Part shown: positions 1 through 19,109 of the stretch, in pieces
Layout: each line of letters begins with the position of its first letter
How positions within the stretch are numbered: the first letter of the stretch is position 1
DNA from: Spirosoma validum
GTDB lineage: Bacteria > Bacteroidota > Bacteroidia > Cytophagales > Spirosomataceae
Direction: 5' to 3'
Assembly (NCBI RefSeq): GCF_014699035.1
Contig: NZ_JACXAA010000015.1
Location: 62,001-126,000 of the forward strand
Length of the DNA stretch: 64,000 nt
Notes under the pieces: model-generated
The model's input: only the letters and a program-made list of their open reading frames with translations
The model's database searches: none
What the model was told of the DNA's origin: nothing
Made by a program: the position numbers and the translations under genes

Positions 1-566
1 TGATCGTGCAGGTAGTCGAACACAAGTTTTTTCTCCAGACAAACTCGCTCTTTATGGAAGACAAACATCGGACTTCTTACCCGGGCATCGTCCTGAATCA
101 CGCTGTGCACAATCGCTCGTAACGTGCGCTCGGCTATCCGCAGCTGATCCTCTCGGCTTAGTTTAGATAACAAAGGTTTAAGATACGAATCGCCCGGTTG
201 TTGAGCAAGTTGATCCATCCAGACCACTACGTCCATGCGTCGATTTTCGTCCCAGCGTTCGATTGCGTCGGGCGCTTGTGCGCGCATCTGTATCTTCCAG
301 CCAGCTGCTTTTATAACATCCCGTAAAACAGAATCGAATGCTGTTGCGAAAAACGCTCGCTCATCGGGTTGCAGTTGACGTAGCACGCTTCCCAGCTCCT
401 GTATAACTACCTGACGTAGCATAGGCGACTGTGATTTGTAGTGAGTCAGATTCTGATCGAGTGTTCGCCCAATAAACTCATTTACCCGTTGACCAAATGC
501 TAATTCGATTGGACGTCTGGCTGCCTCAACAAGCTGATCAATAACCTTTATGTCCATTGTGCCCAT
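1..566 (-). CDS. Unknown soluble protein, third gene of the ECF sigma operon (C-terminus outside window)
   Basis: The minus strand is open from an ATG at 566 (an in-frame ATG at 557 is the alternative) for about 188 codons without a stop, so the C-terminus lies beyond the left edge. The N-terminus reads MGTMDIKVIDQLVEAARRP. I see no signal peptide or membrane segment; the sequence is charged and looks mostly helical. I do not recognise the family. Its start lies inside the end of the anti-sigma-like gene (19-bp overlap), so it is probably translationally coupled and belongs to the same operon as the sigma factor. By position it could be another partner of the sigma/anti-sigma pair, but nothing in the visible sequence shows this. 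Confidence 0.75.
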   Translation of the reverse strand, partial: MGTMDIKVIDQLVEAARRPIELAFGQRVNEFIGRTLDQNLTHYKSQSPMLRQVVIQELGSVLRQLQPDERAFFATAFDSVLRDVIKAAGWKIQMRAQAPDAIERWDENRRMDVVVWMDQLAQQPGDSYLKPLLSKLSREDQLRIAERTLRAIVHSVIQDDARVRSPMFVFHKERVCLEKKLVFDYLHD

Positions 567-1228
567 TTAATTTGCCACCAGAGCTTCCAGCGGTTTACTA
601 AACCAATCCGGTACTCACAATCAATGCAGTGGGCATACTGGTCATAAATACGATTGGCTTTGTCAGGCTGACCACTTTTCAGATAGGCTACCGCCAGATG
701 CCACTGGACTGCTTCCCGAAAATAAGGTCGAATGTCGGTTACGTGTACGATCTGCTCAAAGCTTTTTACGGCTAAGGCGTACTGACCGTCAACCAGGTGC
801 ATCTGGCCTTCAAAAAACTGTTCAAAGATGCGTTTTTGGGCTACGACTACGCTATCATCACTTAGACTGCGTGTTACGCTGAAATCGTTTTCTGAATCCG
901 GGAATGAGACAGGTGTAAAGGATAAGTAGGCGATAAAGAGTACACAAACCGTAGCAAAGCTTACCATTGACCGACGTACTAAGCGGATACGATGCGTTTG
1001 GTATTTAGCTTGATGCTGAAGCTGTTTTATCCGGCCAATGGCCCGCTGTTGTAAGAAAGCTTCGTGCATGATCTCGTGCGTTCGTTTAAGTGACGTTACT
1101 TCCTCCCGAAAATCAGGATCAGCGTTCATCTCAGCCTCAACAGATGTGCGTTCATCTGCTGGCATCTGATCGTTGAGATAGCGCTCAATCCAATCCTGTT
1201 CGTCTAGTTTATCAGCTGGTCTCTTCAT
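548..1228 (-). CDS. Membrane anti-sigma-like protein with periplasmic TPR-type domain
   Basis: A 226-residue protein from the ATG at 1228, chosen because it forms a 4-bp ATGA overlap with the stop of the sigma gene; a longer frame starting at 1264 would run into that gene. The first ~88 residues are acidic and helical (MKRPADKLDEQDWIERYLND...), as in cytoplasmic anti-sigma regions, but show no HxxxCxxC zinc motif. One transmembrane segment lies at about residues 89-106 after RIRLVRRS, so positive-inside puts the C-terminal ~115 residues in the periplasm. That part has TPR-like helices (YALAVKSFEQIV; HLAVAYLKSGQPDKANRIYDQ). Inferred role: holds the adjacent ECF sigma factor at the membrane and senses an envelope signal. 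Regulated proteolysis of the periplasmic part is plausible but unproven. Confidence 0.75.
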   Translation of the reverse strand: MKRPADKLDEQDWIERYLNDQMPADERTSVEAEMNADPDFREEVTSLKRTHEIMHEAFLQQRAIGRIKQLQHQAKYQTHRIRLVRRSMVSFATVCVLFIAYLSFTPVSFPDSENDFSVTRSLSDDSVVVAQKRIFEQFFEGQMHLVDGQYALAVKSFEQIVHVTDIRPYFREAVQWHLAVAYLKSGQPDKANRIYDQYAHCIDCEYRIGLVNRWKLWWQIKWAQWT

Positions 1229-1797
1229 GGTGTTGTCACTAATTTCTTCAATGCCTGTATGCAACGATATTTCCTGGTCTTCGCATTGTCGGCAGTGCCC
1301 AGATTAAAGTCGTCGGCAATTTCCTGCATTGTCTTTTTGTCAAAATAAAAGGCGGTCAGTATATCCTGGCAGGTTTTGCCGAGTTTGCCGAACAGGGCCC
1401 AGGCAGACCGAAGCTCATCTTCATCGATCAACACCTCTTCCGGACTGCGGTCATTCAGCAGTTGATTGCGGCTGTATTTCTCATGGCGCTGATTAACCGC
1501 ATTACGTTTAGTCCACTCCTTAAGCCAGAGATTACTGGCAATGCCGTAGATGTACGTCGTCACTTTAGCGTCGTGATGAACCTGATACTTACTTGTCCAG
1601 ACATTCTGAAGAAAGGCAAGGATCGTTTCCTGGAATAAATCATTGGCGTCGTCTTCGCTTCCCCCTTTTCGGGTAACCAGATTCGTGATATTTCGCTGGC
1701 ACTGTTCATAAAGGTACGTAACGATGTCTTCTGTGATCGCAACCTGCTTACTCTGCAAACCATCAACAATCTGCTGATCAGTAAAGGATTTCTTCAT
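1225..1797 (-). CDS. ECF-type RNA polymerase sigma-70 factor
   Basis: A 190-residue protein of ECF sigma size. Region 2 is recognisable at about residues 45-105 (EDDANDLFQETILAFLQNVW, then YIYGIASNLWLKEW), and region 4 near 130-185 (LGKTCQDILTAFYFDKKTMQEIADDFNLGTADNAKTRKYR), giving -10 and -35 recognition helices. It directs RNA polymerase to a small regulon. It is first in an operon with the membrane anti-sigma-like gene (4-bp overlap) and an unknown third gene. Upstream lies a divergent small lipoprotein gene with a 162-bp shared spacer, which could hold autoregulated promoters. The CHAT protease operon is about 0.7 kb further on. Confidence 0.93.
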   Translation of the reverse strand: MKKSFTDQQIVDGLQSKQVAITEDIVTYLYEQCQRNITNLVTRKGGSEDDANDLFQETILAFLQNVWTSKYQVHHDAKVTTYIYGIASNLWLKEWTKRNAVNQRHEKYSRNQLLNDRSPEEVLIDEDELRSAWALFGKLGKTCQDILTAFYFDKKTMQEIADDFNLGTADNAKTRKYRCIQALKKLVTTP

Positions 1798-1959
1798 GCA
1801 TTTGGGAGGAAGTTATTTGCCTTATATACCACCTGAAGAGGGAGAGGTAACAGCCGAAAAAAAAGTCACTATTTTTTTAAAGAGAACCGCGGGAAATCAA
1901 AAAAACGACGCGTGGAACAGTGAGTTCGGACGAACCGGATTCATTAAACCTCCTATGCT

Positions 1960-2154
1960 ATGCGTTTATCAGTCAAAAACACCCTGATTCTTGGTGCCAT
2001 CGCGTCAACGTTTATGCTGGCCTCCTGCCAATCACAACAGATTGATCCCCAGCCAGCATCTATTCATCAAACTACCTCTGACTCGCTTGTCGTACGTACG
2101 TATGATGACCAACCCCCGAAGACCGGGGGAAATGGCGGAGAAGGTTATAATTAA
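1960..2154 (+). CDS. Small lipoprotein, 64 aa
   Basis: This short gene encodes a hydrophobic leader (SVKNTLILGAIASTFMLASC) with lipobox LASC, placing lipidated Cys at residue 23, followed by about 40 polar residues ending in GGNGGEGYN. I do not recognise a family. That it is a gene is supported by the classic lipobox, by a strong terminator five bases after the stop, and by a decayed second copy about 140 bp downstream that preserves both the lipobox region and the Gly-rich tail. It is transcribed divergently from the ECF sigma factor and convergently toward the CHAT protease gene. A link to either is suggested only by location. Confidence 0.7.
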   Translation: MRLSVKNTLILGAIASTFMLASCQSQQIDPQPASIHQTTSDSLVVRTYDDQPPKTGGNGGEGYN

Positions 2155-2159
2155 TTTGA

Positions 2160-2195
2160 CGCCAGGATTCTTCAAGAATCCTGGCGTGTTTTTAT
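2160..2195 (+). terminator. Rho-independent terminator after the small lipoprotein
   Basis: A perfect 13-bp stem, CGCCAGGATTCTT against AAGAATCCTGGCG with a minimal loop, is followed by TGTTTTTAT. It begins five bases after the lipoprotein stop. Confidence 0.85.
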
Positions 2196-2296
2196 AACTG
2201 CACATAGTGATTTAATTCATAGTTTTATTTGCAGCATTTTACATATGAAAAATTACAATATTTCCCAATCGAATAAGTTCATACATCTTCAACACC

Positions 2297-2481
2297 ATGC
2301 GTTGTCAGAAACACTCTGATTCTTAGTGCTATCGCATCAACATTTACCCTGGCCTCCTGCCAATCACAATAGATTGATACCCCGGTCAGCATCCATTCAT
2401 CAAACTGCCCCCAGCTCGCTCATTGTACGTGCCTACGATGATCAACCTCTCAAGACAGTTGGAGGAGGAGAAGGATATTAA
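2297..2481 (+). pseudogene. Decayed second copy of the small lipoprotein
   Basis: This stretch aligns base for base with the intact lipoprotein gene over its whole length, including the lipobox region (LASCQSQ) and the tail coding for GGGEGY. It is broken: about five bases are lost near the start, which shifts the frame, the CAG codon after CAATCACAA has become TAG, and one base is inserted shortly after. It cannot give the full protein. It looks like an old tandem duplication, and it is followed by its own terminator. Confidence 0.85.
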
Positions 2482-2484
2482 TTG

Positions 2485-2520
2485 ATAAAAGAGGTTTCTA
2501 AAGGAGGCCTCTTTTATTAT
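2485..2520. terminator. Hairpin terminator after the lipoprotein pseudogene
   Basis: Arms ATAAAAGAGG and CCTCTTTTAT enclose a 13-nt loop. The T-rich right arm would terminate plus-strand transcripts, and the A-rich left arm allows it to serve the oppositely directed CHAT gene that ends at 2538. Confidence 0.65.
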
Positions 2521-2537
2521 TCATCCTGGTTGCTCCA

Positions 2538-5360
2538 TTATAGATTACCAGATAAGCGACGCGTTACAAAATAGGTTATCCGCTTACGCTGCCAAAACAC
2601 GCCCATGCTCAATAATAGCATACTAATTACCAATCCACTAACTAATCCTGGTCGGCGGTTAGCGGCCATTACAGGCGACGCGTTGCCAAGCAACGTATAA
2701 TTGGCCCAGTAGTAAGGATGATTGTATTTAAGAAACAGCGACGACTCGAAGAAATCTTGTCGAGCCTGCTGCAAAGCCCGATCTATAGCCATTCCCTGCG
2801 TTAGGTATTCATGAAGCCGGATGGTTAGGAAAGCGGTTGTTTCGTCGTTGGCTTTCCAAAGAGTTGTTACTACGGATGGGCAACCCGCATAAGCAAACGC
2901 CCGCGCTAACGATAGTACTCCCTCACTTTTTATTACCCTGCCCGATCCTGTTTCGCAGGCCCCCAGTACCACTAAGCCTGTAGCCGACAAGGACAAATCG
3001 TAAATTTCATCGGTATACAGTTTATTGTTATCATCCGGATAGAACGCAACATACGAGTTAGATGGGTCAGCGTCGTCTGTTTCGGCATGGGTAGCAAAGT
3101 AGATCACGTTACGATCCATATCGGCTTTCAGGAAATTCGCTAAAGTAGCCTCTGGTCCTAAGAGTACATCTCCTCCAATACTACGTGCTTCAGCCTCACT
3201 TGAAGCCAGCGGCCGAAAATTCGCTTGTCGATTCGTGGTTGATGGCACAGTACCCATTCGGGCAAATGGCGCCACTGTGAGCACAGGTTTATTCGATAAA
3301 TCAGTTCGGGGACGATCAAAAAACAACTGTGCCGAAAACGCGTAGGCAATAGCGTAGTGTCTGGTTAAGTAATCGTGTGCCTGTCGACCCGTTTCCAGTA
3401 CTTCAAACGGTAAAAACGCAAAACTCCAGTCTCGGGCAATAATTAGCCTTGTTTTTCCTTTAAGATACCCCCGAACAGGTCCAATTAATAGGGCGTACAA
3501 ATCTGCAGCGCTACCTGTTCCTTCGTAGCTGGCCAGAAAAGGATCATGGTAAAGTTGGTGCTTGAGTTGAGCCAGTTGTTTTGTAAATCGTACGGAGTCG
3601 ATCGGCTGCTGAATTATCTCAACAGCCTGTTGCGTAACAAGCAGAATAAACAAACTGGTCTCATTTCGTACGTACGAAATGTAAGCGGTTTCGTTGTCGA
3701 TCTGTTGTTGCAATGCCCAACTACTTGAACTGGTCCCACGATAATTGAGCCGATAATAAGCAGGATAATCATGCTTGAACGTATCAAGGAGTTGGTGCCA
3801 TTGCAGTTGAGCAGTCGTTAAAGAAACCGTGGCTGTTGTATCACTGAGACTTTTTCGTCGAGCTTGTTTAATTTGTTTTTTCAGTTGCTGCTCCCGCTCA
3901 AGCAGATGCGTCGGTATGGTTTGTGGCTTAATCGTGCTTAGTCGAAGTGCTTCCCGCAAACTTCCTGCCTGAGCCTGCTCGAACAAGCGAAACAACGTAT
4001 CGCGTAAAGCTCCGCTTCGTCTGCGTTGATAAGCCTCGAAAACAGTGCTAACGGCTTCGGGTACAAGGCTGTGTTGGGCTGCGAAAATAAGCTGCGACTG
4101 TTCAGAGTCGATTCCGTGACGAATGTGCTCCTGAAGATCAACGCAGGCTTGATATGACTTAACAGCAGCGTTTTGATAAACCAAATTAGCTGTAAGCGTA
4201 TGTAACTTTCTCAACACGGCTGCTTTATGCCACATTGACAGCAGTAATGTTGTTTCATCGGATACGTCGTCAGCCCTCGGATTCTGCCATTGACCAGTAC
4301 AACTTTCCGGGTTACGACATATGGCCCGCACTGCTTCCTGATAAGCTTGTAAGGCCTGATTTAATTCATGACGGATTTCAAGAAGTTGGCCTTTCTCCAC
4401 AAAAATCCTAGCCATTAACCGGCCCTGGCTACCAAACGATTTCAGGTGAAGCCGATGGGCTTGGGTAAGGTACCGCTCTGTCTTTTCTAATTGATTGGTT
4501 GCACGATAACAGGCACTCATCATCCACCAAAGATGTATCTGTTCTGATGCATAATCAGTAACGGCCTTTCCTCGACGTAGTGTTGTCAAGAGTTGCTCTG
4601 CTTCAGTAAAATAGGCTAACGACTTAGAATACTGGTGTAATTTGTACAACGTCCATCCAATACCGGATAGATTACCATACATTCGAATATCAACTCCTTT
4701 ATACAGTTTTTTGGCTAATAGTCGATGATGTAATGCTTCATTAAAATCTCCCATTGCGTCATAGGCTTGGGCCAGGTTACTCTCAACATACGTCAGATCA
4801 TCGTCAGTACCGTATTTTGCAGCTATTTCCTGTGCTTTAGTCAAATACGAGAGGCTTCGGGTGTAATTGCCTGTTTTAAGAAACCAGTTTCCCTGGTTGT
4901 TAAAATGAAACAATACGTAAAGCGGAATTTGCCGTTCGATCGTTGGGTGTTGGGTTAGCAAGGCATCGGCTTTGCGGAAGTAGATTTGTGCAGAGTCGTT
5001 CCGATAGAGAGCACCGTAGAACGTACCAAGGCTCGAAAACAGTTTAAACCGAGCGGAGTCGGGAGCAGTCGGAATAGCATGAAGATAGCGCAGACCCAAC
5101 AGACACCGGTTGATGGCGATACGGTTCTGGTTCTTCATGTAGTCCATACTGCTTAGATCGACACAAAGATTGGCTGCTCGTATAGGATCGCTGGTACGTA
5201 CCAGTTGAAAAGCTTTTTCGTAAAAACGTGTGGCCTCTTCGTATTTTTTGTGGACATACAATGTTTCGGCCTTCTGGCGATACGTATCAGCCAATATAAT
5301 CTGCGTCCAGCCTACCTGAGGCAGGAGTAGTAAGAACCAGAAGATGTTTCGACAATTCAC
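2538..5360 (-). CDS. TPR-CHAT protease, exported and membrane-anchored
   Basis: A 940-residue protein. Residues 1-20 are a signal peptide (MNCRNIFWFLLLLPQVGWTQ). Residues ~20-420 hold TPR-like repeats (for example YEEATRFYEKAFQL, GNYTRSLSYLTKAQEIA). A helical linker follows, then a CHAT (caspase-like) domain from about 590 to 880 with catalytic His758 in FATHAE and Cys802 in GACETG. A transmembrane segment at ~906-923 is followed by a basic tail (WQRKRITYFVTRRL), so positive-inside places TPR and CHAT domains in the periplasm. CHAT proteases act on partner proteins after TPR-mediated sensing. The gene follows a matrixin/lectin-like gene by 35 bp and ends 740 bp from the ECF sigma/anti-sigma operon, whose periplasmic domain is an obvious candidate substrate (inference). 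Confidence 0.92.
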   Translation of the reverse strand: MNCRNIFWFLLLLPQVGWTQIILADTYRQKAETLYVHKKYEEATRFYEKAFQLVRTSDPIRAANLCVDLSSMDYMKNQNRIAINRCLLGLRYLHAIPTAPDSARFKLFSSLGTFYGALYRNDSAQIYFRKADALLTQHPTIERQIPLYVLFHFNNQGNWFLKTGNYTRSLSYLTKAQEIAAKYGTDDDLTYVESNLAQAYDAMGDFNEALHHRLLAKKLYKGVDIRMYGNLSGIGWTLYKLHQYSKSLAYFTEAEQLLTTLRRGKAVTDYASEQIHLWWMMSACYRATNQLEKTERYLTQAHRLHLKSFGSQGRLMARIFVEKGQLLEIRHELNQALQAYQEAVRAICRNPESCTGQWQNPRADDVSDETTLLLSMWHKAAVLRKLHTLTANLVYQNAAVKSYQACVDLQEHIRHGIDSEQSQLIFAAQHSLVPEAVSTVFEAYQRRRSGALRDTLFRLFEQAQAGSLREALRLSTIKPQTIPTHLLEREQQLKKQIKQARRKSLSDTTATVSLTTAQLQWHQLLDTFKHDYPAYYRLNYRGTSSSSWALQQQIDNETAYISYVRNETSLFILLVTQQAVEIIQQPIDSVRFTKQLAQLKHQLYHDPFLASYEGTGSAADLYALLIGPVRGYLKGKTRLIIARDWSFAFLPFEVLETGRQAHDYLTRHYAIAYAFSAQLFFDRPRTDLSNKPVLTVAPFARMGTVPSTTNRQANFRPLASSEAEARSIGGDVLLGPEATLANFLKADMDRNVIYFATHAETDDADPSNSYVAFYPDDNNKLYTDEIYDLSLSATGLVVLGACETGSGRVIKSEGVLSLARAFAYAGCPSVVTTLWKANDETTAFLTIRLHEYLTQGMAIDRALQQARQDFFESSLFLKYNHPYYWANYTLLGNASPVMAANRRPGLVSGLVISMLLLSMGVFWQRKRITYFVTRRLSGNL

Positions 5361-5395
5361 GGAGCAGTAAGAGGATGAAAGCGGAATTAGGTTAT

Positions 5396-6385
5396 TTATT
5401 GATAGTCAATCACGACGGTAAATGCACCAGTGTTGTTTTTCTGATCATCATCATTAATGTCAAAAGTTAAATCAACCACTTGTTTATTATCAACTTTAAA
5501 CGTTTGGTTATCTGCCCAATAACGCCAGTCTGCTTCATTGTTGATTTTGTACATAAGAGCAGCGTGAAACATAGCGGATACTTTATTATAACCAGGAAGC
5601 ACCGGAAAAACTGTCGCGCCTTCAGGCCCAACCGTGCCAACGATGTCCCCTACCTTCATCTGCCCATTGGCTTTTATCGAAATCATCCCCGGTTTATAAA
5701 GCTGGATAGTTTTGCTTATTGGTCCACTCACTTTTAATGTAAGGGGCAGATAACTTACGGTCAAGTCGGTGCAAGTTGATTTGTATAAGCTATTTATCGC
5801 CACAGAATCCGCTTTAGAACGGACTACCGGCTGATCCAGAAACTGAAGCGCCATTAACGAGCCCGGCTCTGTTGAGGTAGGCATACCTAAAAACAACCCA
5901 GCATGATAAGCCACTGCTTTGGTAAGCGAATTCTTATCCCAATTGAAGGTATTACTCAGCAATAGGCTATATGTCCCATTACTTTCTTTACGTAGCGTTC
6001 CACCTACTCCAGTCCGTCCATCCATCAAACCAACAGGAGCAACCATATACGGCATTGGGAATTCAGACGGATCAACGAACCGCACCACTAAATGAGCTCG
6101 GTCGGTTGCTTGAAAATCCAGAAAACCGAGATTAGGGCACATCTGCTGCCAGACTGTAAAACCGGTTCGGATAGCCTCTCGCTGGCTATCGTTATTGAGC
6201 TTATCGAAACTATTTAGAACTGTATAGCGAAAATTACACTCTGTTGATGGACGACGGGCTGTCTCATTACGGTCGGCGCTGACGTATACCTGTTTTACTG
6301 CCGCAGGTGGCTCGTCCTGACATTGCGAAAAAAGGGCCCAAATTAGTAGTAAGGCCAGAGTGGAACGAAGTAAGGTGGATAGCAT
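5396..6385 (-). CDS. Exported protein with degenerate matrixin-like and LecA-like lectin regions
   Basis: A 329-residue protein with a hydrophobic leader ending near Cys22 (ALFSQC, an imperfect lipobox). Residues ~50-180 resemble matrixin-type metalloproteases: a FRYTVLNS strand, an AIRTGFTVWQQM helix, AHLVVRFVD, then AYHAGLFLGMPTSTEPGSLM, which matches HExxHxxGxxH...SLM except that only one His (161) remains; it is probably not an active peptidase. Residues ~215-329 resemble the galactose-binding PA-IL (LecA) fold: KPGMISIKANGQM, GPEGATVFPV, FHAALMYKI and NDDDQKNNTGAFTVVI, the last matching the calcium/sugar loop of LecA. It lies 35 bp upstream of the TPR-CHAT gene, likely in one operon. The family calls are by eye. 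Confidence 0.6.
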   Translation of the reverse strand: MLSTLLRSTLALLLIWALFSQCQDEPPAAVKQVYVSADRNETARRPSTECNFRYTVLNSFDKLNNDSQREAIRTGFTVWQQMCPNLGFLDFQATDRAHLVVRFVDPSEFPMPYMVAPVGLMDGRTGVGGTLRKESNGTYSLLLSNTFNWDKNSLTKAVAYHAGLFLGMPTSTEPGSLMALQFLDQPVVRSKADSVAINSLYKSTCTDLTVSYLPLTLKVSGPISKTIQLYKPGMISIKANGQMKVGDIVGTVGPEGATVFPVLPGYNKVSAMFHAALMYKINNEADWRYWADNQTFKVDNKQVVDLTFDINDDDQKNNTGAFTVVIDYQ

Positions 6386-6488
6386 TGCGTATGAAAACTT
6401 AACGATGGAACCGTTACGAAATCAGAAAGCAATATACTCATTACAAACAATTTACTTCATTAGCTATCAAAAAATCAGCATAAGTAAC

Positions 6489-7886
6489 TTAGTGTATACT
6501 TACAGCGACTTCCGATTTAAGCTGATCGAAATTATTCATTCGAGCGATTCGCCGGAAAAAGCGCCATGTCAACAGAACAGCTGCAATTGTTAACCCTGCC
6601 AGTAAACCAATCCACACGCCAATAGCATCCATCTTAAAGGGAAAAGCTAATACGTAGCTCAACGGTAGGGCGACAACCCAGTAAGAAAACAACGTAATGA
6701 GCGTCGGTACGTTGACGTCCGATAAGCCGCGCAAGCCACCCAGGGCAACGACTTGCACGCCGTCAGACAATTGAAAGAAGCCCGCCATAATGACCAGCGA
6801 AGCAGCAATCGTCATAACAGCCGGATTGTCGCGAATGTAGAGCGTAACCAGCCAGTCGTTAGCGGTAAGAAACAAGAGGGCAGCCAAACTCATAAAACTC
6901 ACAGACAACAGGAAGGCGGCTATCCCCGCTTTAAAAATGCCTTCCCGGCTCCCCCGCCCCACAGCCGCGCTCACCCGAATGGCAGCCGCCGACGAGATGC
7001 CCGTTGCCATCATATACGTAACAGAAGCCATATTAATCGCAATCTGATGAGCCGCCAATCGGTCTTCGCCAAGCCAGCCAACAATAACGACAGCCAGGGA
7101 GAACGTAGCAATCTCAAAGAAAAACGTCATGCCGCCAGGAATACCCAACCGCAAAATCGTCCAGATATCGCTCGTCGTTGAGAGGTTCTGAAAGCTTGAC
7201 TGCAGGTATTCCCTGAACCGTTCAGCCCGGTAAATGTAAATCAGGATTGCTGCTGCCATAAATAGCCTGGATATGAGCGTAGACAGCGCCGATCCCATCA
7301 GTCCCAGCTCAGGAAATGGCCCTATGCCTTTAATAAGTACGTAGTTAAAAACAGCATTTATGCCTAAAGCGGAGAGGGTAATCGCCATGGCTACGTGTGG
7401 ATACCGCAGGCCATCGCAGAGTTGACGAGCTGATACGAAAATTAATAACGGCAGAACCGACGCGCTCAAAATCAACATAAAGTTCCGAGCCAGTCGCGCT
7501 ACCTCTGGCGTTTGACCAAATAGTTCAAAATTATAAGCCAGTACTACGGATAGGCCGCCCAGAATAACACTCAACAATATCGCAACACGTAGTCCTGCCC
7601 GAAAGAGCCGGTTCACAGTTGCTACGTCGTTCTGACTACGCGCTTTTGAAATTAAAGCAGCCACGACCGGTAAGGCACCTACACCGATACCCGATAGCAG
7701 AAAAGACAACGAATTAGCCAGCCCAGCCGCTCCTAACGGCACAGCGCCCAGCAAACGCCCGACAAAAAGATTATCCGTAACGCCCATCAGGACAACACCT
7801 AACTGAGCAATAACGATCGGCACACTTAATCGGAGCGTATCAGCAAGTTCGGTACGGTAAGCGCGAAACAGAGTAGTGGAAACCAT
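6489..7886 (-). CDS. MATE family multidrug/cation efflux transporter
   Basis: A 465-residue inner-membrane protein starting at the ATG at 7886 (MVSTTLFRAYRTELADTLRL); a TTG-started extension of 18 residues is less likely. It has the twelve-helix pattern of MATE exporters, two related halves, and typical early motifs (PIVIAQLGVVLMGVTDNLFVGRLL, GAAGLANSLSFL). Members use Na+ or H+ gradients to expel drugs and metabolites. The substrate cannot be read from sequence. It ends about 100 bp before the matrixin/lectin gene start; its upstream side is a 274-bp divergent spacer shared with the putative metallopeptidase, in which I see no clear operator. Confidence 0.93.
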   Translation of the reverse strand: MVSTTLFRAYRTELADTLRLSVPIVIAQLGVVLMGVTDNLFVGRLLGAVPLGAAGLANSLSFLLSGIGVGALPVVAALISKARSQNDVATVNRLFRAGLRVAILLSVILGGLSVVLAYNFELFGQTPEVARLARNFMLILSASVLPLLIFVSARQLCDGLRYPHVAMAITLSALGINAVFNYVLIKGIGPFPELGLMGSALSTLISRLFMAAAILIYIYRAERFREYLQSSFQNLSTTSDIWTILRLGIPGGMTFFFEIATFSLAVVIVGWLGEDRLAAHQIAINMASVTYMMATGISSAAAIRVSAAVGRGSREGIFKAGIAAFLLSVSFMSLAALLFLTANDWLVTLYIRDNPAVMTIAASLVIMAGFFQLSDGVQVVALGGLRGLSDVNVPTLITLFSYWVVALPLSYVLAFPFKMDAIGVWIGLLAGLTIAAVLLTWRFFRRIARMNNFDQLKSEVAVSIH

Positions 7887-8160
7887 GGGGTGAATCGATA
7901 AAAAAGAACATGCAAACAAGTCACACAAAAACAGAAGCAACGAACGTGATAAGGAGTTCCCAGCACTGGCTTGTTAAGGGAACAGATCAAGTATTGAAAA
8001 GCCATACTGATCAGATAATCAAGTAGTTCAGGCAATAGATAGCAGGAAACCACGCAATTTATCAAACACGGAATTCCACGCTAATACACTTGAACAGATT
8101 CGGCAATCTTTAACCCGCTAAAAGTAGCTCGATCTATAACCCTTAACTCAATCACTTCTT

Positions 8161-10857
8161 ATGTTTCAGGAACTGCTTCCCAATGAACAGACATTGATCA
8201 CCCGCAATGACGCGGGCGTCGTACGCGACATCAACCATGCCGAAGCGCCCGTAACGCAACCAGCTGGCTCGGCTCGCGAAGCTGCCGATCTTTACCTGCG
8301 TCAGCAGGCCGACCAACTCATGACCAGTCAAGAATCATTACGCGGATTAGAGAGTTTAACCGCCAGCAGTCCTGAGTCCGAGGCTGGTGGCTACCGATTT
8401 CAGAATGAAAAAGCTCAATTTGACATTACGACCGTAGGCTACCAACAAACATTTTTTGGTTTACCAGTCTGGGGAGCGGGCGTGAGTGTACAAGTCAAAC
8501 ACGAACCGTACCGAGTGTTATCAGCGCAACACACCGGCGACCCCGGCATTGACGTAGACCAGCCCAATGACGGCGCCGTCAGCTACATGCAGAACCTTAC
8601 GGCTGATCAGTTGGCAAAACTGCTCGGTCTACCACCCGAATCACTAGCCCTTAACGGGAAAAAGCTGTGGATCTTCCTGTACGATGCGAAAAAGAGAACA
8701 GAAGATCACCCGCACACCGATAATGAGGGATTCACTCAGGGATTCGCCGAACTGCACCTTACTCTACCAATACCTTCCGTAGCTGACTCTATCAAAAACG
8801 GTCGTTATTACGTTGCTCTTGAAGCCCTGTTCACAACAACTGTCCCTAATTTGGGGCCTGTTAACTGGCGGGCGTTTATAGAGGTCGAAACCGGTTCGGT
8901 GCTTCAACTTCGTGCGCTGATCGACAACGTAAACGGGTTGGTATTCACAACAGACCCGATTACGTTGACAGGTAACCCGGCAAATGGCCCAACAGCCAGT
9001 AACGCTACGTTAAATCCACTGCGCCAGTCGGTACCTCTGCCCTTGAATCCGCCCCTGCCGATTGTGAACATCCAGACGCTGACAGGTCAATTTGTGCGAA
9101 TTTCAGACTTTGAGCTGCCTACCGTATCGGCACCTGTTCAGCCGGCTGGAGTCAACTTCAATTTCAATAGTCGCTCTAACCAATTTGCCGCCGTCAATGC
9201 TTACTACAACTGTGACCGTTTTTTCCGGGTCATGCAAAGCATGGGGTTCAACATTGTAAGCTATTTCAATAATACAACCTTCCCAATCCCGATTGATCAC
9301 CGAGGGCGTTATAGTACAGTAGATGGGGTAGAGGTCAATGCCTATTGTGCTGGTAATGCCTCGGGGAATGGCATCGGACGGTCAGCCTATATGCTCGCTA
9401 ATACGACCGATACAACCAACCCAATCAGCATTGCCGCCGACTGGCGCGTAGTTCTGCACGAATTGGCCGGGCATGGCATTTTATGGGATAATGTTTCCTC
9501 ACCCAACTTTGGCTTTGCACACAGCGCCGGTGATTCAGTAGCCGCTATTCTCAACGACCCCACGAGTCAGGCACCCGACCGGTTCGAGACCTTTCCCTGG
9601 ACGTTTTCATCGCTCCCTGCTACGTCACGACGGCGCCACGATCGCACTCTTGTCGATGGCTGGGGCTGGGGCGGTACCCGCGATGTAGGTGGCTACAGCA
9701 GCGAACAAATACTCTCGACAACGCTCTTCCGTTTCTACCGCTCAATAGGGGGCGATTCAGGCAGCGTTTCCATGCGTGAGTTTGCCGCTCGTTACACCTG
9801 TTATCTGATTTTCCGGGCGGTTAGTACCCTTACCCCCGCCACTAACCCTGGCAACGCCAGCGGTTTCGCATCGGCTCTGATGACCGCCGATCTCGGCGAC
9901 TGGACCACTGCCGGGCATTCGGGTGGTGCCTATGGAAAAGTGATTCGATGGGCGTTTGAGAAGCAAGCCCTGTTTCGGGCTCCCGGCACACCAGCCACAG
10001 CGGTTGGGTCTCCTCCTCCTGTTGACGTTTACATTGAGGATGGCCGGGCAGGTGAGTATAGTTTCCAGCCCGTTCACTGGAATAATACGCGCATCTGGAA
10101 CCGACGTAGTGCCGATGGACTGATGACCCACCAGGAACCCGTAGTTGGCCAGCCCAACTTTGCTTACGTGAAAGTAAAAAATCGGGGCACTCAAGTCGCG
10201 ACGAACGTACGGGTGAAAGCGTTTCACTGCAATCCTGGCACAGGTCTGACCTGGCCAAACGACTGGCAACCCATGACAACCGCTCAGCGTTCGGCCCCAA
10301 ATATCGCGCCGAATAATACGGCAGAAGTGGTAGTCGGCCCGTTTGAATGGACACCGACGCAACTTGGTCATGAGTGCATGCTCATGATTGCGTCCGCCAC
10401 CGGCGATGCCAGTAACATCGATAATTTTACGGCAGGCGACTCAATACCCGAATGGCGCTTAGTACCGAATGACAACAACATTGGCCAACGAAACGTAGCG
10501 CCGGTGGCTGCCCTCCCCGACGGCCTGGTTAAAGCGTTTAAAGGCCGGCGATTTTTGATTCGGAATCCCTTCGATGAAGTTGTCAAGTTAGACGTGCGGG
10601 TTCAGCAGCCAAAATGGCTTACAAAACTTGGCTGGCAATTGGTTTTCCAGAATGAGCAGGAGTTGAGCCGGCTCGACAAGCGCGGCAAGATCGAAGCTGT
10701 AATGGCGATGAAGCCGGGAGAGGAATTTAAGCCAGAAACGGTGCGTTCGCAGCGAGATCGGACCATTACAATTGAAGTATGGGCGAATGGGTTATTAACG
10801 GGAGGTATGACCTACGTGATTGATCCGAAATTAACGGAAAACGAACGTGTCGTATAA
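8161..10857 (+). CDS. Putative zinc metallopeptidase, 898 aa, motif HELAGHG
   Basis: The central region contains VVLHELAGHGILWDNVSSPNFGFAHSAGDS. The His-Glu pair (433-434) and His438 are spaced as HExxxH, one residue longer than the usual HExxH, and the following FAHSAGDS could supply further ligands. The N-terminal ~300 residues resemble a propeptide/FTP-type region (NEKAQFDITTVGYQQTFFGLPVWGAGVSVQ). Residues ~640-760 look like a beta-sandwich of CARDB type (PNFAYVKVKNRGTQVATNVRVKAFHC). The start MFQELLPNEQTLITR shows no signal peptide, which is odd for a protein of this architecture; I found no upstream in-frame start that would add one. It is a single gene with a strong terminator after it. 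Confidence 0.65.
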   Translation: MFQELLPNEQTLITRNDAGVVRDINHAEAPVTQPAGSAREAADLYLRQQADQLMTSQESLRGLESLTASSPESEAGGYRFQNEKAQFDITTVGYQQTFFGLPVWGAGVSVQVKHEPYRVLSAQHTGDPGIDVDQPNDGAVSYMQNLTADQLAKLLGLPPESLALNGKKLWIFLYDAKKRTEDHPHTDNEGFTQGFAELHLTLPIPSVADSIKNGRYYVALEALFTTTVPNLGPVNWRAFIEVETGSVLQLRALIDNVNGLVFTTDPITLTGNPANGPTASNATLNPLRQSVPLPLNPPLPIVNIQTLTGQFVRISDFELPTVSAPVQPAGVNFNFNSRSNQFAAVNAYYNCDRFFRVMQSMGFNIVSYFNNTTFPIPIDHRGRYSTVDGVEVNAYCAGNASGNGIGRSAYMLANTTDTTNPISIAADWRVVLHELAGHGILWDNVSSPNFGFAHSAGDSVAAILNDPTSQAPDRFETFPWTFSSLPATSRRRHDRTLVDGWGWGGTRDVGGYSSEQILSTTLFRFYRSIGGDSGSVSMREFAARYTCYLIFRAVSTLTPATNPGNASGFASALMTADLGDWTTAGHSGGAYGKVIRWAFEKQALFRAPGTPATAVGSPPPVDVYIEDGRAGEYSFQPVHWNNTRIWNRRSADGLMTHQEPVVGQPNFAYVKVKNRGTQVATNVRVKAFHCNPGTGLTWPNDWQPMTTAQRSAPNIAPNNTAEVVVGPFEWTPTQLGHECMLMIASATGDASNIDNFTAGDSIPEWRLVPNDNNIGQRNVAPVAALPDGLVKAFKGRRFLIRNPFDEVVKLDVRVQQPKWLTKLGWQLVFQNEQELSRLDKRGKIEAVMAMKPGEEFKPETVRSQRDRTITIEVWANGLLTGGMTYVIDPKLTENERVV

Positions 10858-10861
10858 TTAA

Positions 10862-10912
10862 ATTTGTTTCCCACTCATCCACAAGAGTCCTGTAGATGAG
10901 TGGGAAACAAAT
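10862..10912 (+). terminator. Terminator hairpin after the metallopeptidase gene
   Basis: A perfect 18-bp stem (ATTTGTTTCCCACTCATC and its complement) with a 15-nt loop starts four bases after the stop codon. A short T run follows. Confidence 0.85.
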
Positions 10913-11081
10913 CATTTTCTATGAACCCTCAGTGGGTTGAAGCCCGTCATGACTCATAATTCGGGATATCAGTTTCGACCTCACTATATCAAAATGCCAT
11001 TTCCTTTGATCATTTATTCATTCAGATTAGTGCCTCACCCAGCGCGATTATTTTTTTATGTTCTCCCTGCTGCTTTCTTCG

Positions 11082-11089
11082 TACTTTTG
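11082..11089 (+). promoter_or_regulatory. Candidate -7 box for the DUF4290 gene
   Basis: TACTTTTG matches the Bacteroidota -7 consensus TAnnTTTG and lies 30 bp upstream of the TTG start. I see no good -33 TTTG at the usual spacing. Confidence 0.45.
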
Positions 11090-11118
11090 TCTTCTTTATC
11101 ACAAATCAGGATAAGCCT

Positions 11119-11925
11119 TTGAAAGAATACGGCAGTAGTATCCAAAAGTTGGTTGACAACATGGTCAACATCGACGATCGGGAAAAACGCACTCGTTATG
11201 CGCATATCCTGATCGAACTGATGCGGCAGATTCACCCAAACATGAAAGACGGTCAGGATTACTACAATAAGTTGTGGGACGATCTGTATATCATGTCGGG
11301 TTTTACGCTGGATGTAGAAAGTCCTTATCCTCCGCCATCGGAAGAAGCACTGGGTAAAAAGCCACAGAGGGTTCCCTATAATACCCATCATCTAAAATTC
11401 AAGCATTTTGGACGTAATGTCGATTTATTGATAGCTAAGGCTACGTCGCTGGAAGATCCTGACGAACGGCGGGCTTTTGTTTCGTATCTGACGCGTCTGA
11501 TGCGTACGTTTTATCAGGCATGGAATAAAGAATCCGTTGAAGATGAGACTATTTACCAGAGTCTTATTGAGTTATCGAACGGTAAACTCCACGACGACAT
11601 TCAGTTGATTCGGGAACAAGGGCTCGTGGATGCAACCCCACGCGAACGTACGGGTGATCAACCCCAGCGGATTGGCGGTAATAATTACCGGAATGATCGC
11701 GAAGGGAACCAACGCTCTGGACCAAATCAGGGACGTTCCAATAATCGGAACGATAATTCGGGTTCACAACGAAACTTCGGTAGCCGGAACCGAAACGACC
11801 GCGATGGCGGACCACAGGGCCGTCCTAACAACCGCAACGACGGATCGCCACGTAACTTTGGCAATCGGGATGGCGGTCAGCGCCCTGGCAACAACCGCAA
11901 TGACGGTCCACGCCGAAGACGCTAA
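11119..11925 (+). CDS. DUF4290 domain protein with Asn/Arg/Gly-rich tail
   Basis: A 268-residue protein. Residues 1-165 match DUF4290, a Bacteroidota-specific family often found just upstream of murA (KEYGSSIQKLVDNMVNIDDREKRTRYAHILIELM; the YNTHHLKFKHFGRN repeat of that theme). The last ~90 residues are a low-complexity tail of N, R, G, Q and D repeats, suggestive of RNA or protein binding. The start is the TTG at 11119, because the conserved N-terminus begins KEYGSSIQ and no ATG lies before it. murA follows 101 bp downstream, the order commonly seen in this phylum. Function is not known. Confidence 0.85.
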   Translation: MKEYGSSIQKLVDNMVNIDDREKRTRYAHILIELMRQIHPNMKDGQDYYNKLWDDLYIMSGFTLDVESPYPPPSEEALGKKPQRVPYNTHHLKFKHFGRNVDLLIAKATSLEDPDERRAFVSYLTRLMRTFYQAWNKESVEDETIYQSLIELSNGKLHDDIQLIREQGLVDATPRERTGDQPQRIGGNNYRNDREGNQRSGPNQGRSNNRNDNSGSQRNFGSRNRNDRDGGPQGRPNNRNDGSPRNFGNRDGGQRPGNNRNDGPRRRR

Positions 11926-11931
11926 TATTTT

Positions 11932-12013
11932 AATTATGAATGATGAGGTATAAATGCTGGATAGGATCAAACTATTTCTCTCGCTTATCATTTATAATTA
12001 ATCATTCATAATT
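11932..12013. repeat. AT-rich inverted repeat between DUF4290 and murA
   Basis: Two 25-bp arms (11932-11956 and 11989-12013) are complementary with three mismatches around a 32-nt centre. There is no T run. It may attenuate or insulate murA transcription. Confidence 0.6.
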
Positions 12014-12026
12014 TATCATTCTTTAA

Positions 12027-13334
12027 ATGGCATCCTTTCAAATTACTGGTGGTCGTAAACTAAAAGGTGAACTGATCCCACAAGGGGCAAAGAACGAAGC
12101 CCTGCAAATTCTTTGCGCCGTATTACTCACAAAAGAACCCGTTACGATTTATAATATTCCGGGAATACGGGATGTCAATCAACTCATTGACCTGCTTGGT
12201 GATTTAGGTGTTTGGGTAACAAAAATTGGTGAAGGCGCGTATCGCTTTCAGGCCAGCGACGTTAATCTGGATTATCTGGAGACTGATACGTATAAACGCA
12301 AAGCCGCTGCCCTTCGTGGGTCGGTTATGCTGTTGGGGCCCATGCTCGCGCGCTTCAAAACGGGGCGTATTCCTCGGCCCGGTGGTGATAAAATTGGTCG
12401 GCGACGACTCGATACGCACTTTCTGGGTTTTGAAAAACTAGGCGCTCAATTCAATTACGATGCTAACGACGGAGGTTATTATCAGGTTGACGCCAGCAAT
12501 CTGCGCGGTACGTACATGCTTCTCGACGAAGCCTCAGTAACAGGTACAGCCAACATATTGATGGCTGCTGTTATGGCCGAAGGGATTACGACTATTTATA
12601 ATGCTGCTTGTGAGCCCTATCTTCAGCAACTCTGTAAGATGCTCAATTCGATGGGCGCCAAGATTTCGGGCGTTGGCTCGAATCTGCTCACAATTGAGGG
12701 TGTGTCCGAACTGAAAGGTACCGAGCACACCATGTTGCCCGATATGATCGAGATTGGTTCGTTCATTGGTATGGCAGCTATGACTCAGTCAGAGATTACG
12801 ATCAAAAACTGTCAGATTCCTGAATTAGGTATTATTCCCGATCAATTCAAACGGTTGGGTATCCAGATGGAATTTAGAGGTGATGACATTTTCGTTCCGG
12901 CGCAGGAGCATTACCAGATCGACAGTTTTTTGGATGGGGGCATGATGACCGTTGCCGACGCACCTTGGCCCGGTTTTACACCCGATCTGCTGAGTATCGT
13001 TCTCGTTACTGCCGTACAGGCGCAGGGAACATTACTTATTCACCAGAAAATGTTCGAAAGTCGGCTGTTCTTTGTCGATAAACTGATCGACATGGGGGCT
13101 CAAATCATTCTCTGCGATCCACACCGCGCTACGGTCGTTGGCTTGAATCGTCAAGTTCCCTTAAAAGGTATTCGCATGTCGTCGCCGGATATTCGGGCGG
13201 GGGTTGCTCTGTTGATTGCAGCGATGTCGGCCAAAGGCACCAGCATTATTGACAGCATAGAACAAATTGACCGGGGTTACCAACACATCGATACGCGTTT
13301 GAACGCTATTGGTGCCGAGATTATCCGGTTGTAA
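12027..13334 (+). CDS. murA: UDP-N-acetylglucosamine 1-carboxyvinyltransferase
   Basis: A 435-residue cytoplasmic enzyme that transfers enolpyruvate from PEP to UDP-GlcNAc, the first committed step of peptidoglycan synthesis. The start MASFQITGGRKLKGELIPQGAKNEAL holds the conserved Lys22-Asn23 pair, and the EPSP-synthase-like fold runs the full length. At the position of the classic catalytic Cys (E. coli Cys115) the loop reads PRPGGDKIGRRRLDTH, so the residue is Asp121. Cys-to-Asp at this site is known from MurA enzymes that are insensitive to fosfomycin. It follows DUF4290 and ends at a strong terminator. Confidence 0.97.
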   Translation: MASFQITGGRKLKGELIPQGAKNEALQILCAVLLTKEPVTIYNIPGIRDVNQLIDLLGDLGVWVTKIGEGAYRFQASDVNLDYLETDTYKRKAAALRGSVMLLGPMLARFKTGRIPRPGGDKIGRRRLDTHFLGFEKLGAQFNYDANDGGYYQVDASNLRGTYMLLDEASVTGTANILMAAVMAEGITTIYNAACEPYLQQLCKMLNSMGAKISGVGSNLLTIEGVSELKGTEHTMLPDMIEIGSFIGMAAMTQSEITIKNCQIPELGIIPDQFKRLGIQMEFRGDDIFVPAQEHYQIDSFLDGGMMTVADAPWPGFTPDLLSIVLVTAVQAQGTLLIHQKMFESRLFFVDKLIDMGAQIILCDPHRATVVGLNRQVPLKGIRMSSPDIRAGVALLIAAMSAKGTSIIDSIEQIDRGYQHIDTRLNAIGAEIIRL

Positions 13335-13350
13335 AAGTTTGATTCTTAAG

Positions 13351-13391
13351 TTTCACAGAAAAAGGGCCATCAAGGCCCTTTTTCTGTGAAA
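13351..13391 (+). terminator. Terminator after murA
   Basis: A perfect 18-bp stem (TTTCACAGAAAAAGGGCC and its complement) with a 5-nt loop begins 16 bp after the murA stop; the right arm carries an internal run of T. Confidence 0.9.
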
Positions 13392-13522
13392 AACCATTAC
13401 GACTGCAGTTGAAAATCTCACAACTCAAATTAATCAATACTAAACCTTCTTTATTCATTTTTGTCTTTAGTACGTAACACGTTTAATTTGACACACGGAA
13501 ACACACTAATAATCAAAATACT

Positions 13523-14167
13523 ATGAAAACGCTACAATCCAATCTATCCATCTGGGCCCTGGCAGCCCTGCTATCAGGTAGTTCATTAATGGCTTGTGCT
13601 CAGGCGACAACAGGCTCAACAGCGGCCGCAACAACGAATGACCCTGCTAAATCAACCCTGCTTACTCCTTTGCAGCAAAGTATTACCAGATTGAAAAAAT
13701 TATCAGCAACAGGCGATCCCGACTTTGATTATGCTTTCCAGGCCAAAGCGCATACGCAGGGTATACAGGATTTGCTGAAAGCCGAAATCCAGAACGGCAA
13801 GGACACCGCCATGGTGAATATGGCAAAATCAACGCTGCCCGCCACAGAAGCTGATCTAGCGATGTTTGACGGCACAATGCGCCAACTCAAACCAACGCGT
13901 CCAAGTCAGGCTTACACGCAGCAACAGAACCGCAACATCGAAGCTATGAGCCTGAAATTACAGCAAACCGGCTCCAGCGATAAGCTGACAAGCAACTTGG
14001 ATAAAAACTTTGCTACGTTGCTACTCGACCAGCGTCAGGATGCAATTGACATGGCCACTACGTATCTACAATACGGTAATAATGCCGCGCTGAAGACTTA
14101 TGCGCAGCAATTAGTCGATAAATCCAAACAGCAAATGGCTACGCTCAAAGCGCAGCAGCCTAAATAA
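13523..14167 (+). CDS. DUF305-like lipoprotein
   Basis: A 214-residue exported protein. The leader ends in LMAC, a lipobox, so it is probably a lipoprotein. Residues ~62-115 (DPDFDYAFQAKAHTQGIQDLLKAEIQNGKD...) follow the DUF305 pattern of ferritin-like helical hairpins, with one His kept. Residues ~150-212 (NFATLLLDQRQDAIDMATTYLQYGNNAALKTYAQQLVDKSKQ) look like a second copy of the same unit without its His residues. DUF305 proteins are periplasmic and some are linked to metal handling, but no function is proven here. A 15-bp inverted repeat separates it from the rhodopsin gene. Confidence 0.75.
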   Translation: MKTLQSNLSIWALAALLSGSSLMACAQATTGSTAAATTNDPAKSTLLTPLQQSITRLKKLSATGDPDFDYAFQAKAHTQGIQDLLKAEIQNGKDTAMVNMAKSTLPATEADLAMFDGTMRQLKPTRPSQAYTQQQNRNIEAMSLKLQQTGSSDKLTSNLDKNFATLLLDQRQDAIDMATTYLQYGNNAALKTYAQQLVDKSKQQMATLKAQQPK

Positions 14168-14184
14168 AACCGAACGTTTTGCCG

Positions 14185-14231
14185 TGAATGCAGTAATGGT
14201 CGTATATTCAAGCTTCCCATTACTGCATTCA
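14185..14231 (+). promoter_or_regulatory. Hairpin ending on the rhodopsin start codon
   Basis: TGAATGCAGTAATGG (14185-14199) pairs perfectly with CCATTACTGCATTCA (14217-14231), with a 17-nt loop. The last paired base is the A of the rhodopsin ATG. It could terminate transcripts of the upstream gene or mask the rhodopsin start in the mRNA. Confidence 0.65.
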
Positions 14232-15049
14232 TGGAAGTAACTGATTCTTTTATGCCAACAGCGGGTGTTGTTGGCCTTCTGCCCATGGTCACGTACTTTT
14301 TCCTGGTCGTGGCCATGTTTGCTTTTATAGGTAATTTCGTTCTCTCGCTGGCAATCCAGCCGTCTATTCGTCCAGAGTTTCGTATTGTTCATTCGGTAAC
14401 GGCGGTTGTTGCGGTTGTGTCAGCAGTATCTTGTTACCTGACACAGACGTATTACCACGATATGTTGCGCGAATTAGCGACCGTTACGGATGCCAACGAT
14501 CGGCAAACGCTCATTCGCGAGTCATACAATGCCATTGGCCAATTCCGCTATATGGATTGGTTTATTACGTCCCCGCTGCTCTTACTGCAAATTATCTTTG
14601 GTCTTAATTTCCAGCGAAATGCAGTCAAGCGACCGTTAATTTATTTGCTGACAGCTACTTTGCTGCTATATTTTGCCAGCTATATCGGCCACCAGCAGCT
14701 ATCCTTCGACAACGAAATTCAGGTTGGCATGAAAGTTATCTGGGGATTGGTTGCGACGATAGCTTATGGATTTAGTCTATTCACGCTACGTCGGTTAGAG
14801 CAGCAGTTCGGTGAACAAACGACGCTTACCCAACAACGTGCCTATCGGCAGATGGCCTATCGGCAGATGATGGTGATCATCGCTACGTGCTGGGGAATTT
14901 ACCTGCTTGGCTATTTCCTGACCGTTACGCCTATTGACTTTAGCTGGATTCACATTGCTTTTACTATCACTGATCTCACCGCTAAGATCAGTATCGGATT
15001 AATTGTTTATTTTACTAGTACAAAGTCAGTGGAAAACGCTGATAGTTAG
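14231..15049 (+). CDS. Microbial (type I) rhodopsin with D-T-Q motif
   Basis: A 272-residue seven-helix retinal protein. Helix G carries the Schiff-base lysine, Lys252 in TDLTAKISIG, with the counter-ion Asp248 four residues before it. Helix C reads RYMDWFITSPLLLLQ: Asp109, Thr113 and Gln120 align with Asp85, Thr89 and Asp96 of bacteriorhodopsin. His76 (TYYHDM) aligns with the His that pairs with the primary Asp in proteorhodopsin and xanthorhodopsin. The usual motif is D-T-E/D for proton pumps, N-D-Q for sodium pumps and N-T-Q for chloride pumps; D-T-Q lacks a carboxyl proton donor. A 15-bp tandem duplication lies in the E-F loop. No retinal-synthesis gene is in the window. Confidence 0.93.
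   Translation: MEVTDSFMPTAGVVGLLPMVTYFFLVVAMFAFIGNFVLSLAIQPSIRPEFRIVHSVTAVVAVVSAVSCYLTQTYYHDMLRELATVTDANDRQTLIRESYNAIGQFRYMDWFITSPLLLLQIIFGLNFQRNAVKRPLIYLLTATLLLYFASYIGHQQLSFDNEIQVGMKVIWGLVATIAYGFSLFTLRRLEQQFGEQTTLTQQRAYRQMAYRQMMVIIATCWGIYLLGYFLTVTPIDFSWIHIAFTITDLTAKISIGLIVYFTSTKSVENADS
14840..14869 (+). repeat. Perfect 15-bp tandem duplication in the rhodopsin gene
   Basis: The unit GCCTATCGGCAGATG occurs twice in a row without mismatch, giving AYRQMAYRQM at residues 204-213 in the cytoplasmic E-F loop. The frame is kept. Confidence 0.97.
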
Positions 15050-15124
15050 TTAACTGTAGTACTTCAAGGCGAGACTGCCTCATTCTTTTCCATTCATCTT
15101 ATAACATTCTTTAAATCTGGCTCT

Positions 15125-16021: not shown

Positions 16022-16038
16022 CTGTTTCTGAACAGATG

Positions 16039-17871: not shown

Positions 17872-17879
17872 GTATACCG

Positions 17880-17887
17880 CAAAGATA
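17880..17887 (-). promoter_or_regulatory. Candidate -7 box for the ABC exporter
   Basis: On the minus strand TATCTTTG fits TAnnTTTG and ends 8 bases before the ATG, implying a nearly leaderless transcript. Confidence 0.5.
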
Positions 17888-17936
17888 CCGTCTGAACCGG
17901 GATTTAGCTGATTACAGGATTGCCAGGATTTTATTT

Positions 17937-19013: not shown

Positions 19014-19032
19014 TTGTGTCTGTAAATTTTAA

Positions 19033-19105: not shown

Positions 19106-19109
19106 CAAT

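Follow-up and report, generated by a model that had tools for sequence, protein, structure and literature searches.

A TPR-CHAT protease probably acts on a one-helix anti-sigma factor in a CRISPR-free, envelope-facing relay of Spirosoma validum

The stretch of DNA analyzed here (the window) comprises 64,000 nucleotides of the 8.2 Mb genome of Spirosoma validum (contig NZ_JACXAA010000015.1, positions 62,001 to 126,000). Near its start, on the – strand as are all window genes described here, it encodes an extracytoplasmic function (ECF) sigma factor, a one-helix anti-sigma factor with a periplasmic TPR domain and, 740 bp from the sigma gene, an exported TPR-CHAT protease. We consider it quite likely that these parts form an envelope-facing relay, free of clustered regularly interspaced short palindromic repeats (CRISPR), in which the CHAT protease cuts the anti-sigma factor after Arg132 (R132) and so frees the sigma factor. 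The parts, the topology signals, the linkage of the genes, the catalytic dyad and the covariation between protease and linker were computed, and from these we infer the cut, the direction of its effect, the signal and the regulon. Residue numbers in the anti-sigma factor follow the 238-residue reading from a TTG codon, which is 12 residues longer than the reading from ATG; R132 is R120 when counted from the ATG.

To assess the linkage of the two genes, loci in the family were chosen by the anti-sigma factor alone: 121 genomes were searched, 42 of which match the anti-sigma factor and 80 the CHAT protein, and all listed matches were fetched except a 110-residue frame (G033:C84). A CHAT domain was found within 6 kb of 45 of the 48 family anti-sigma open reading frames (ORFs), and within 300 bp of 33, with the linked pairs arranged convergently (34), divergently (7) or on the same strand (4). 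At wider distances the loci were taken from the top-scoring matches, almost full in length, rather than at random; linkage was seen in 23 of 40 such loci at class level, where the anti-sigma profile matches 189 of 295 genomes, often partially, and in 47 of 60 further loci at phylum level, where it matches 159 of 395 genomes. The source genome holds 6 CHAT matches and 57 matches to sigma region 2, and from those 6 CHAT matches in 8.2 Mb the chance of adjacency is estimated at ~1% per anti-sigma gene. Of 26 genomes in which the anti-sigma match is strong, 25 also have a CHAT match, versus 6 of 20 examined genomes without an anti-sigma match. The family loci that have no CHAT domain within 6 kb are L081, L113 and L110. 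The last, from Emticicia (9187-10434), has an intact anti-sigma gene, no CHAT nearby and a sigma gene split into two frames, and is likely a decaying copy. Within the same genus as the source, L184 (G004) carries the anti-sigma type with no CHAT match, and its linker site reads LMKD in place of Arg. In two Larkinella loci, L121 (10717-14364) and L122 (10088-13396), a second, longer match to the CHAT query adjoins the linked CHAT.

R132 lies in the anti-sigma linker, and its column was picked by eye in the family alignment before any comparison with the CHAT protein. The column has the best conservation score in the linker (0.81), the next listed in columns 117-140 being Gly134 (0.50). Arg is found here in 41 of the 48 anti-sigma factors of the first alignment and in 99 of 118 non-redundant linked pairs. 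Its median distance past the helix is 22 residues, and the residue that comes next is Gly or Ser in 74 of the 99. A second anti-sigma type shows Met at this position in the earlier alignment; most Met-type linkers have a gap at the R132 column in the later one, where L007 has Ser, and they enter the counts as non-Arg. The TQRYR site of the Larkinella type, Q then R, was scored as Arg, and L267 is a non-Arg pair without a clear P1 residue.

The identity of this linker residue is tracked by the CHAT protein. In a first set of 71 pairs, with structure unused, the CHAT column of Glu724 (E724) followed the division into Arg and non-Arg linkers best (0.659, versus 0.486 for the next column). The resulting R132-E724 rule was recorded before 60 new loci were fetched, which gave a second set of 47 non-redundant pairs, 45 of them scorable: 37 had Arg with an acid at 724, one had Arg with a non-acid, none had non-Arg with an acid and seven had neither (Fisher p 1.8e-7). 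Of all column and class splits, an acid at 724 came out best both in the second set (2884 splits) and in the first (3059), and by plain mutual information E724 and Asp839 (D839) tied at the top of the second set. Together, 130 linked pairs were reduced to 118 by dropping those at least 80% identical, and 115 of these have a residue at 724 (L226, L228 and L115, with a gap there, were excluded from the counts). Position 724 is acidic in 92 of 96 Arg pairs and in none of 19 non-Arg pairs, which are mostly Met; the remaining four Arg pairs and all 19 non-Arg pairs have a non-acid. Over the 118 pairs E724 ranks first of 425 CHAT columns, followed by A756, D839 and E760, columns 756 and 760 flanking the catalytic His758. 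Reciprocally, R132 ranks first of 194 anti-sigma columns for an acid at 724, and after average-product correction only one of 82,450 column pairs outranks R132-E724. S. endophyticum (L131) illustrates the joint change most clearly, having a SITH linker with K724 where its nearest relatives have VTR with E724; other matched changes are Met with Y (L076), Gln with N (L104), Lys with M (L266) and Lys with V (L283). On a CHAT tree built with the active-site columns left out, the fewest changes needed were 8 for P1 and 10 for 724, and none of 20,000 simulated placements of changes reached the observed association. D839 alone was rejected as the specificity residue on its first-set rank (~126th of 439), although it later rose to third of 425. 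The initial annotation had proposed that the CHAT protease cuts the periplasmic part of the anti-sigma factor and had named conserved linkage in relatives as the check. That linkage holds in the family, in three orientations, and across the phylum, and the covariation of linker Arg and pocket acid, read from sequences, lends independent support to the proposed cut.

The CHAT protein also has the features expected of such a protease. It passes the curated PF12770 cut-off of 24 bits (E 1.4e-53), and the His758/Cys802 dyad is invariant both in 52 of 52 CHAT proteins of an earlier alignment and in 126 of 126 that have both columns filled (130 aligned). Its N-terminus is a signal-like hydrophobic stretch and its C-terminus a membrane helix followed by a basic tail, while hydropathy and the structure model of the anti-sigma factor indicate a single helix with a basic N-terminal side, so that its C-terminal domain is predicted to lie outside. 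Taken together, these signals predict that the CHAT catalytic domain and the anti-sigma TPR domain both face the periplasm at the inner membrane. When full-length linked CHAT proteins are scored by a crude hydropathy rule, the C-terminal helix is present in 35 of 44 from the family (34 with a net basic tail) and 21 of 22 from the class (21 basic), and the N-terminal hydrophobic stretch in 28 of 44 and 16 of 22, respectively. The structure model of the CHAT protein (predicted local distance difference test (pLDDT) 90; predicted template modeling score (pTM) 0.85) has Craspase/Csx29, DdvA and separase chains among its top fold matches; PDB entries 8rot and 8rw5, named DdvA, we take to be the Myxococcus protein of the DdvA paper. 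In the model, E724 is part of helix 721-728, which comes first among the listed helices past strand 694-697. This place in the fold, after the strand, is where the P1-anchoring acid of gingipain and separase is described (PMC4626109). By fold position in the model, E724 would thus occupy the place of the separase/gingipain acid that binds a P1 Arg. This, with the covariation, suggests that the CHAT protease most likely cuts after R132.

A relay of this kind would work as follows. At rest, to judge from its architecture, the anti-sigma factor would tether the ECF sigma factor to the inner membrane. The C-terminal helix of the exported TPR-CHAT protease would anchor it in that membrane too, with the catalytic domain predicted just outside, and the protease's TPR superhelix, or else an exported partner, would read a signal. 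Acting as site-1 protease, CHAT would then cut after R132 in the short periplasmic linker at the junction of membrane helix and TPR domain, R132 fitting into an acidic S1 pocket formed by E724, probably with D839. An M50 site-2 protease would cut the remaining stub, and degradation would free the sigma factor, on the paradigm of RseA/DegS/RseP; RseP belongs to regulated intramembrane proteolysis of that type. The P1 residue appears to have changed several times along with the pocket, being Arg here and Met, Lys, His or Gln elsewhere. Three M50 site-2 protease matches are present in the source genome, a weak test in that M50 matches occur in 14 of 14 control genomes too. The source genome also has a paralogous operon (L007, 6637-14121; G000:C38) that encodes, in order, an M50 protease, an ECF sigma factor, an anti-sigma factor, a subtilase and a CHAT protein. 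Its M50 protease has an intact HEFGH motif, its anti-sigma site reads LPLTM and its CHAT protein has A724 and N839; among the loci searched for this M50 gene, it was found only in L007 and L101. More broadly, and with a little less assurance than for the Spirosoma relay itself, we favor the view that anchored periplasmic CHAT proteins across the phylum Bacteroidota are site-1 proteases of ECF anti-sigma factors, that the joint change of P1 and S1 residues acts as a specificity code, and that the CRISPR version is one offshoot of a wider CHAT-to-sigma theme.

Several observations weigh against cleavage after R132 as we propose it. Anti-sigma factors without a CHAT domain within 6 kb keep the Arg in 23 of 33 cases (not dereplicated), so that for those a CHAT protease would have to act in trans; the Arg motif as a mark of CHAT-adjacent anti-sigma factors only was rejected on the same count. 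Arg occurs with a non-acid at 724 in L111 (Q), L124 (L), L263 (R) and L192, which looks misaligned but is still counted; L115 has I at 724 in one alignment and a gap in another; and the R-type family loci L109, L112 and L114 carry N or S at 839. A strict test on independent pairs is underpowered: about four of its five supported pairs agree with the rule and none goes against it (sign test p 0.125). In the second set, several non-Arg pairs are close kin of non-Arg pairs in the first, and the second set is therefore a fresh sample that is not fully independent. The S1 role of E724, moreover, was read from fold position and not from superposed coordinates.

The same covariation is predicted by another arrangement, in which the linker is a pseudosubstrate: R132 would sit in the CHAT active site and hold the protease off as securin does separase, CHAT would have other substrates, and the anti-sigma factor would couple control of the protease to control of the sigma factor. 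We judge this unlikely, as Gly or Ser comes after the Arg in most Arg pairs, which gives the site a cleavable appearance, as the linker around R132, modeled with low confidence, is probably flexible and stands at the very place that a site-1 cut would require, and as an M50 site-2 protease is present in the paralogous operon. Less probable still is that the CHAT gene is a mere target or neighboring effector of the sigma factor whose product never touches the anti-sigma factor. Many ECF sigma factors control neighboring genes, and linkage alone would fit such co-regulation, but the tracking of a linker residue by a residue of the CHAT pocket, in two sets and on the tree, would be left unexplained. 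Chance linkage or a shared mobile island we regard as barely credible; gene order is rearranged and flanking genes differ among the loci, as this would allow, but an origin by chance or hitchhiking was rejected on the counts (45 of 48 genes linked against ~1% expected), and a PADLOC scan of six locus proteins gave no match.

If CHAT does cut the anti-sigma factor, separase-like proteases serve as outside-in transcription switches in free-living bacteria without CRISPR, and the CRISPR protease-sigma relay takes its place in a wider setting. If P1 residue and S1 pocket change together as proposed, protease and substrate could moreover be paired from sequence. The predicted cut site, the pocket residues and the natural variants open the mechanism to testing by point mutants.

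The genes and residues concerned are collected in Table 1. Domain matches and the structure model confirmed the sigma factor, one-helix anti-sigma factor and third gene that the initial annotation had described, as well as its TPR-CHAT protease, which is exported, anchored at the C-terminus and complete in its dyad. The overlapping architecture of its three-gene operon also stood, whereas the possible sigma-like nature of the third gene had been missed and the cut site left unnamed. The CRISPR-free setting it had proposed was borne out too: the RAMP family PF03787, which finds matches in 4 of 14 control genomes, has none in the source genome, no repeat array was seen in window positions 1-20000 or in L006, and a CRISPR connection in the source genome was rejected on these grounds. 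The curated model for Csx29 (NF041237) scored 18.4 bits against a cut-off of 300, and that for the type III-E sigma factor (NF041236) 26.1 bits against 100. The window does contain one imperfect repeat family, three 29-nt direct repeats at 11728-11906 with spacings of 87 and 63 bases.

For the anti-sigma factor, the ATG at 1228 is the most likely start to judge from sequence: this codon overlaps the sigma stop by 4 nt (ATGA), and a Met is aligned at that position in 39 of 39 homologues in one alignment. The structure model of the anti-sigma factor (pLDDT 86; pTM 0.55) has a low-confidence linker, and a PDB search with it gave no match at E ≤ 0.001, the weak matches being mostly TPR; profile searches at the sequence level, for CHAT and anti-sigma factor alike, yielded TPR proteins in overwhelming number. 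The third gene, 383 residues at full length (continued in L006), looks as though it may encode a divergent sigma factor. Its Sigma70_r4 match (19.5 bits) is under the cut-off of 24.1; L131 and L132 have genes in the corresponding place that match a sigma profile at about 1e-10, though Pfam found no sigma domain in that of L131. A fourth overlapping gene lies beyond the window. Only the N-terminal part of its product matches the anti-sigma profile (E 2e-7), and it is a putative second one-helix anti-sigma-like protein. The third and fourth genes (L006, 15738-17566) thus resemble a further sigma/anti-sigma pair of divergent sequence, encoded within this overlapping operon. The third-gene query was matched in 4 of 62 loci (L006, L107, L108 of Fibrisoma and L109 of Runella) and the fourth-gene query in 8 (L006, L107-L109, L009, L095, L105 and L114). 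Between the CHAT and sigma genes, positions 1798-2537 hold no ORF of at least 80 residues, and this gap is a possible regulatory region.

Upstream of the CHAT gene the neighbors vary. Of 121 usable linked CHAT genes (L069-L283), 72 follow another gene on the same strand at a distance of at most 200 bp. A signal-like N-terminus is encoded by 57 of these upstream genes, which, where they could be clustered, form several clusters, which suggests that a variable exported partner may set the signal. In the window this position is held by a matrixin-like protein, whose gene adjoins CHAT in some relatives. Its zinc motif is degenerate (YHAGLFLGM), as are similar motifs in L100 and L115, and it is therefore probably not an active protease; here it may be an accessory or sensor partner of CHAT.

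Table 1. Features of the sigma/anti-sigma and CHAT locus, in window coordinates.
Feature	Position	Strand	Basis
ECF sigma factor, 190 aa	1225..1797	-	Sigma70_r2 37.4 bits (cut-off 24); TIGR02937 59.6 bits (cut-off 42.9)
One-helix anti-sigma factor with periplasmic TPR domain	548..1228	-	ATG start at 1228; TTG at 1264 open too
Anti-sigma transmembrane helix core, residues 100-116	917..967	-	hydropathy 2.21; model helix 50-116; N-terminal side basic
R132 codon, proposed P1 residue	869..871	-	low-confidence periplasmic linker; conserved column
Anti-sigma periplasmic TPR domain, residues 137-238	551..856	-	model helices 137-237; TPR matches below cut-off
Exported TPR-CHAT protease, 940 aa	2538..5360	-	PF12770 182.7 bits, residues 617-893; structure model
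E724 codon, proposed S1-pocket acid for P1 Arg	3189..3191	-	covariation rank 1/425; helix 721-728
Catalytic His758 codon	3087..3089	-	invariant in aligned CHAT proteins
Catalytic Cys802 codon	2955..2957	-	invariant in aligned CHAT proteins
D839 codon, second candidate S1 acid, LWxxxD motif	2844..2846	-	covariation rank 3/425
CHAT C-terminal membrane anchor, ~residues 907-925, then basic tail	2586..2642	-	sequence; model helix 904-939
Third gene, 5' part (continues past window), probable divergent sigma-like protein	3..566	-	weak sigma matches
Exported matrixin-like protein upstream of CHAT	5396..6385	-	PF00413 29.8 bits (cut-off 24)

The proposed relay shares elements with several known systems. 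The type III-E CRISPR system of Csx29 is cytoplasmic. There, Csx29, a TPR-CHAT protein, is an RNA-activated protease acting with Csx30 and the CASP sigma factor (PMC10028731), and a TPR-CHAT protease with a His/Cys dyad is what the Spirosoma locus has in common with it. Csx30 is cut within loop residues 427-429, where no essential residue was found and yet deletion of M427 blocked the cut (PMC10028731), whereas the Spirosoma anti-sigma factor has one conserved linker residue. In the type III-E CHAT the residue by which separase recognizes P1 is replaced by K670 (PMC9729208), while the candidate pocket residues here are acidic. Separase itself, as described for human and Chaetomium, is a eukaryotic, intracellular protease with cohesin as substrate (PMC12609080, PMC4626109); the Spirosoma CHAT is bacterial and, by prediction, envelope-facing, and its proposed substrate is an anti-sigma factor. 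A literature search, in which few subscription papers were covered, found no description of a periplasmic CHAT protease cutting an anti-sigma factor in the text available, DdvA being the nearest case. DdvA is a transmembrane anti-sigma factor with a TPR-CHAT region, its signal being unknown in that work (PMC4374960; PDB 8rot, 8rw5). The region keeps the dyad motifs. It forms one fused chain with the anti-sigma factor, whereas anti-sigma factor and CHAT are separate genes in the window and the tabulated loci, with a cleavable linker proposed; the occurrence of both in one chain supports a direct functional tie between them.

With regulated intramembrane proteolysis (PMC8999054) of the RseA/DegS type (PMC10028731) the proposed relay would share a one-helix anti-sigma factor, a periplasmic first cut and a second cut by an M50 protease, but in place of DegS, a PDZ serine protease, the first protease would be a membrane-fixed cysteine protease of clan CD. 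ECF54, modeled from Geodermatophilus, has CHAT and subtilase genes near its sigma factor and is described without an anti-sigma factor (PMC8999054); the neighborhood of an ECF sigma gene with a CHAT gene, and with a subtilase gene, is common to both, whereas the anti-sigma gene here overlaps the sigma gene. In CalpL/CalpT/CalpS, a SAVED-Lon protease activated by CRISPR cyclic oligoadenylate cuts an anti-sigma factor and frees an ECF sigma factor (PMC11417357), and a dedicated protease acting on an anti-sigma factor is the feature that the Spirosoma relay, as proposed here, would share with it.

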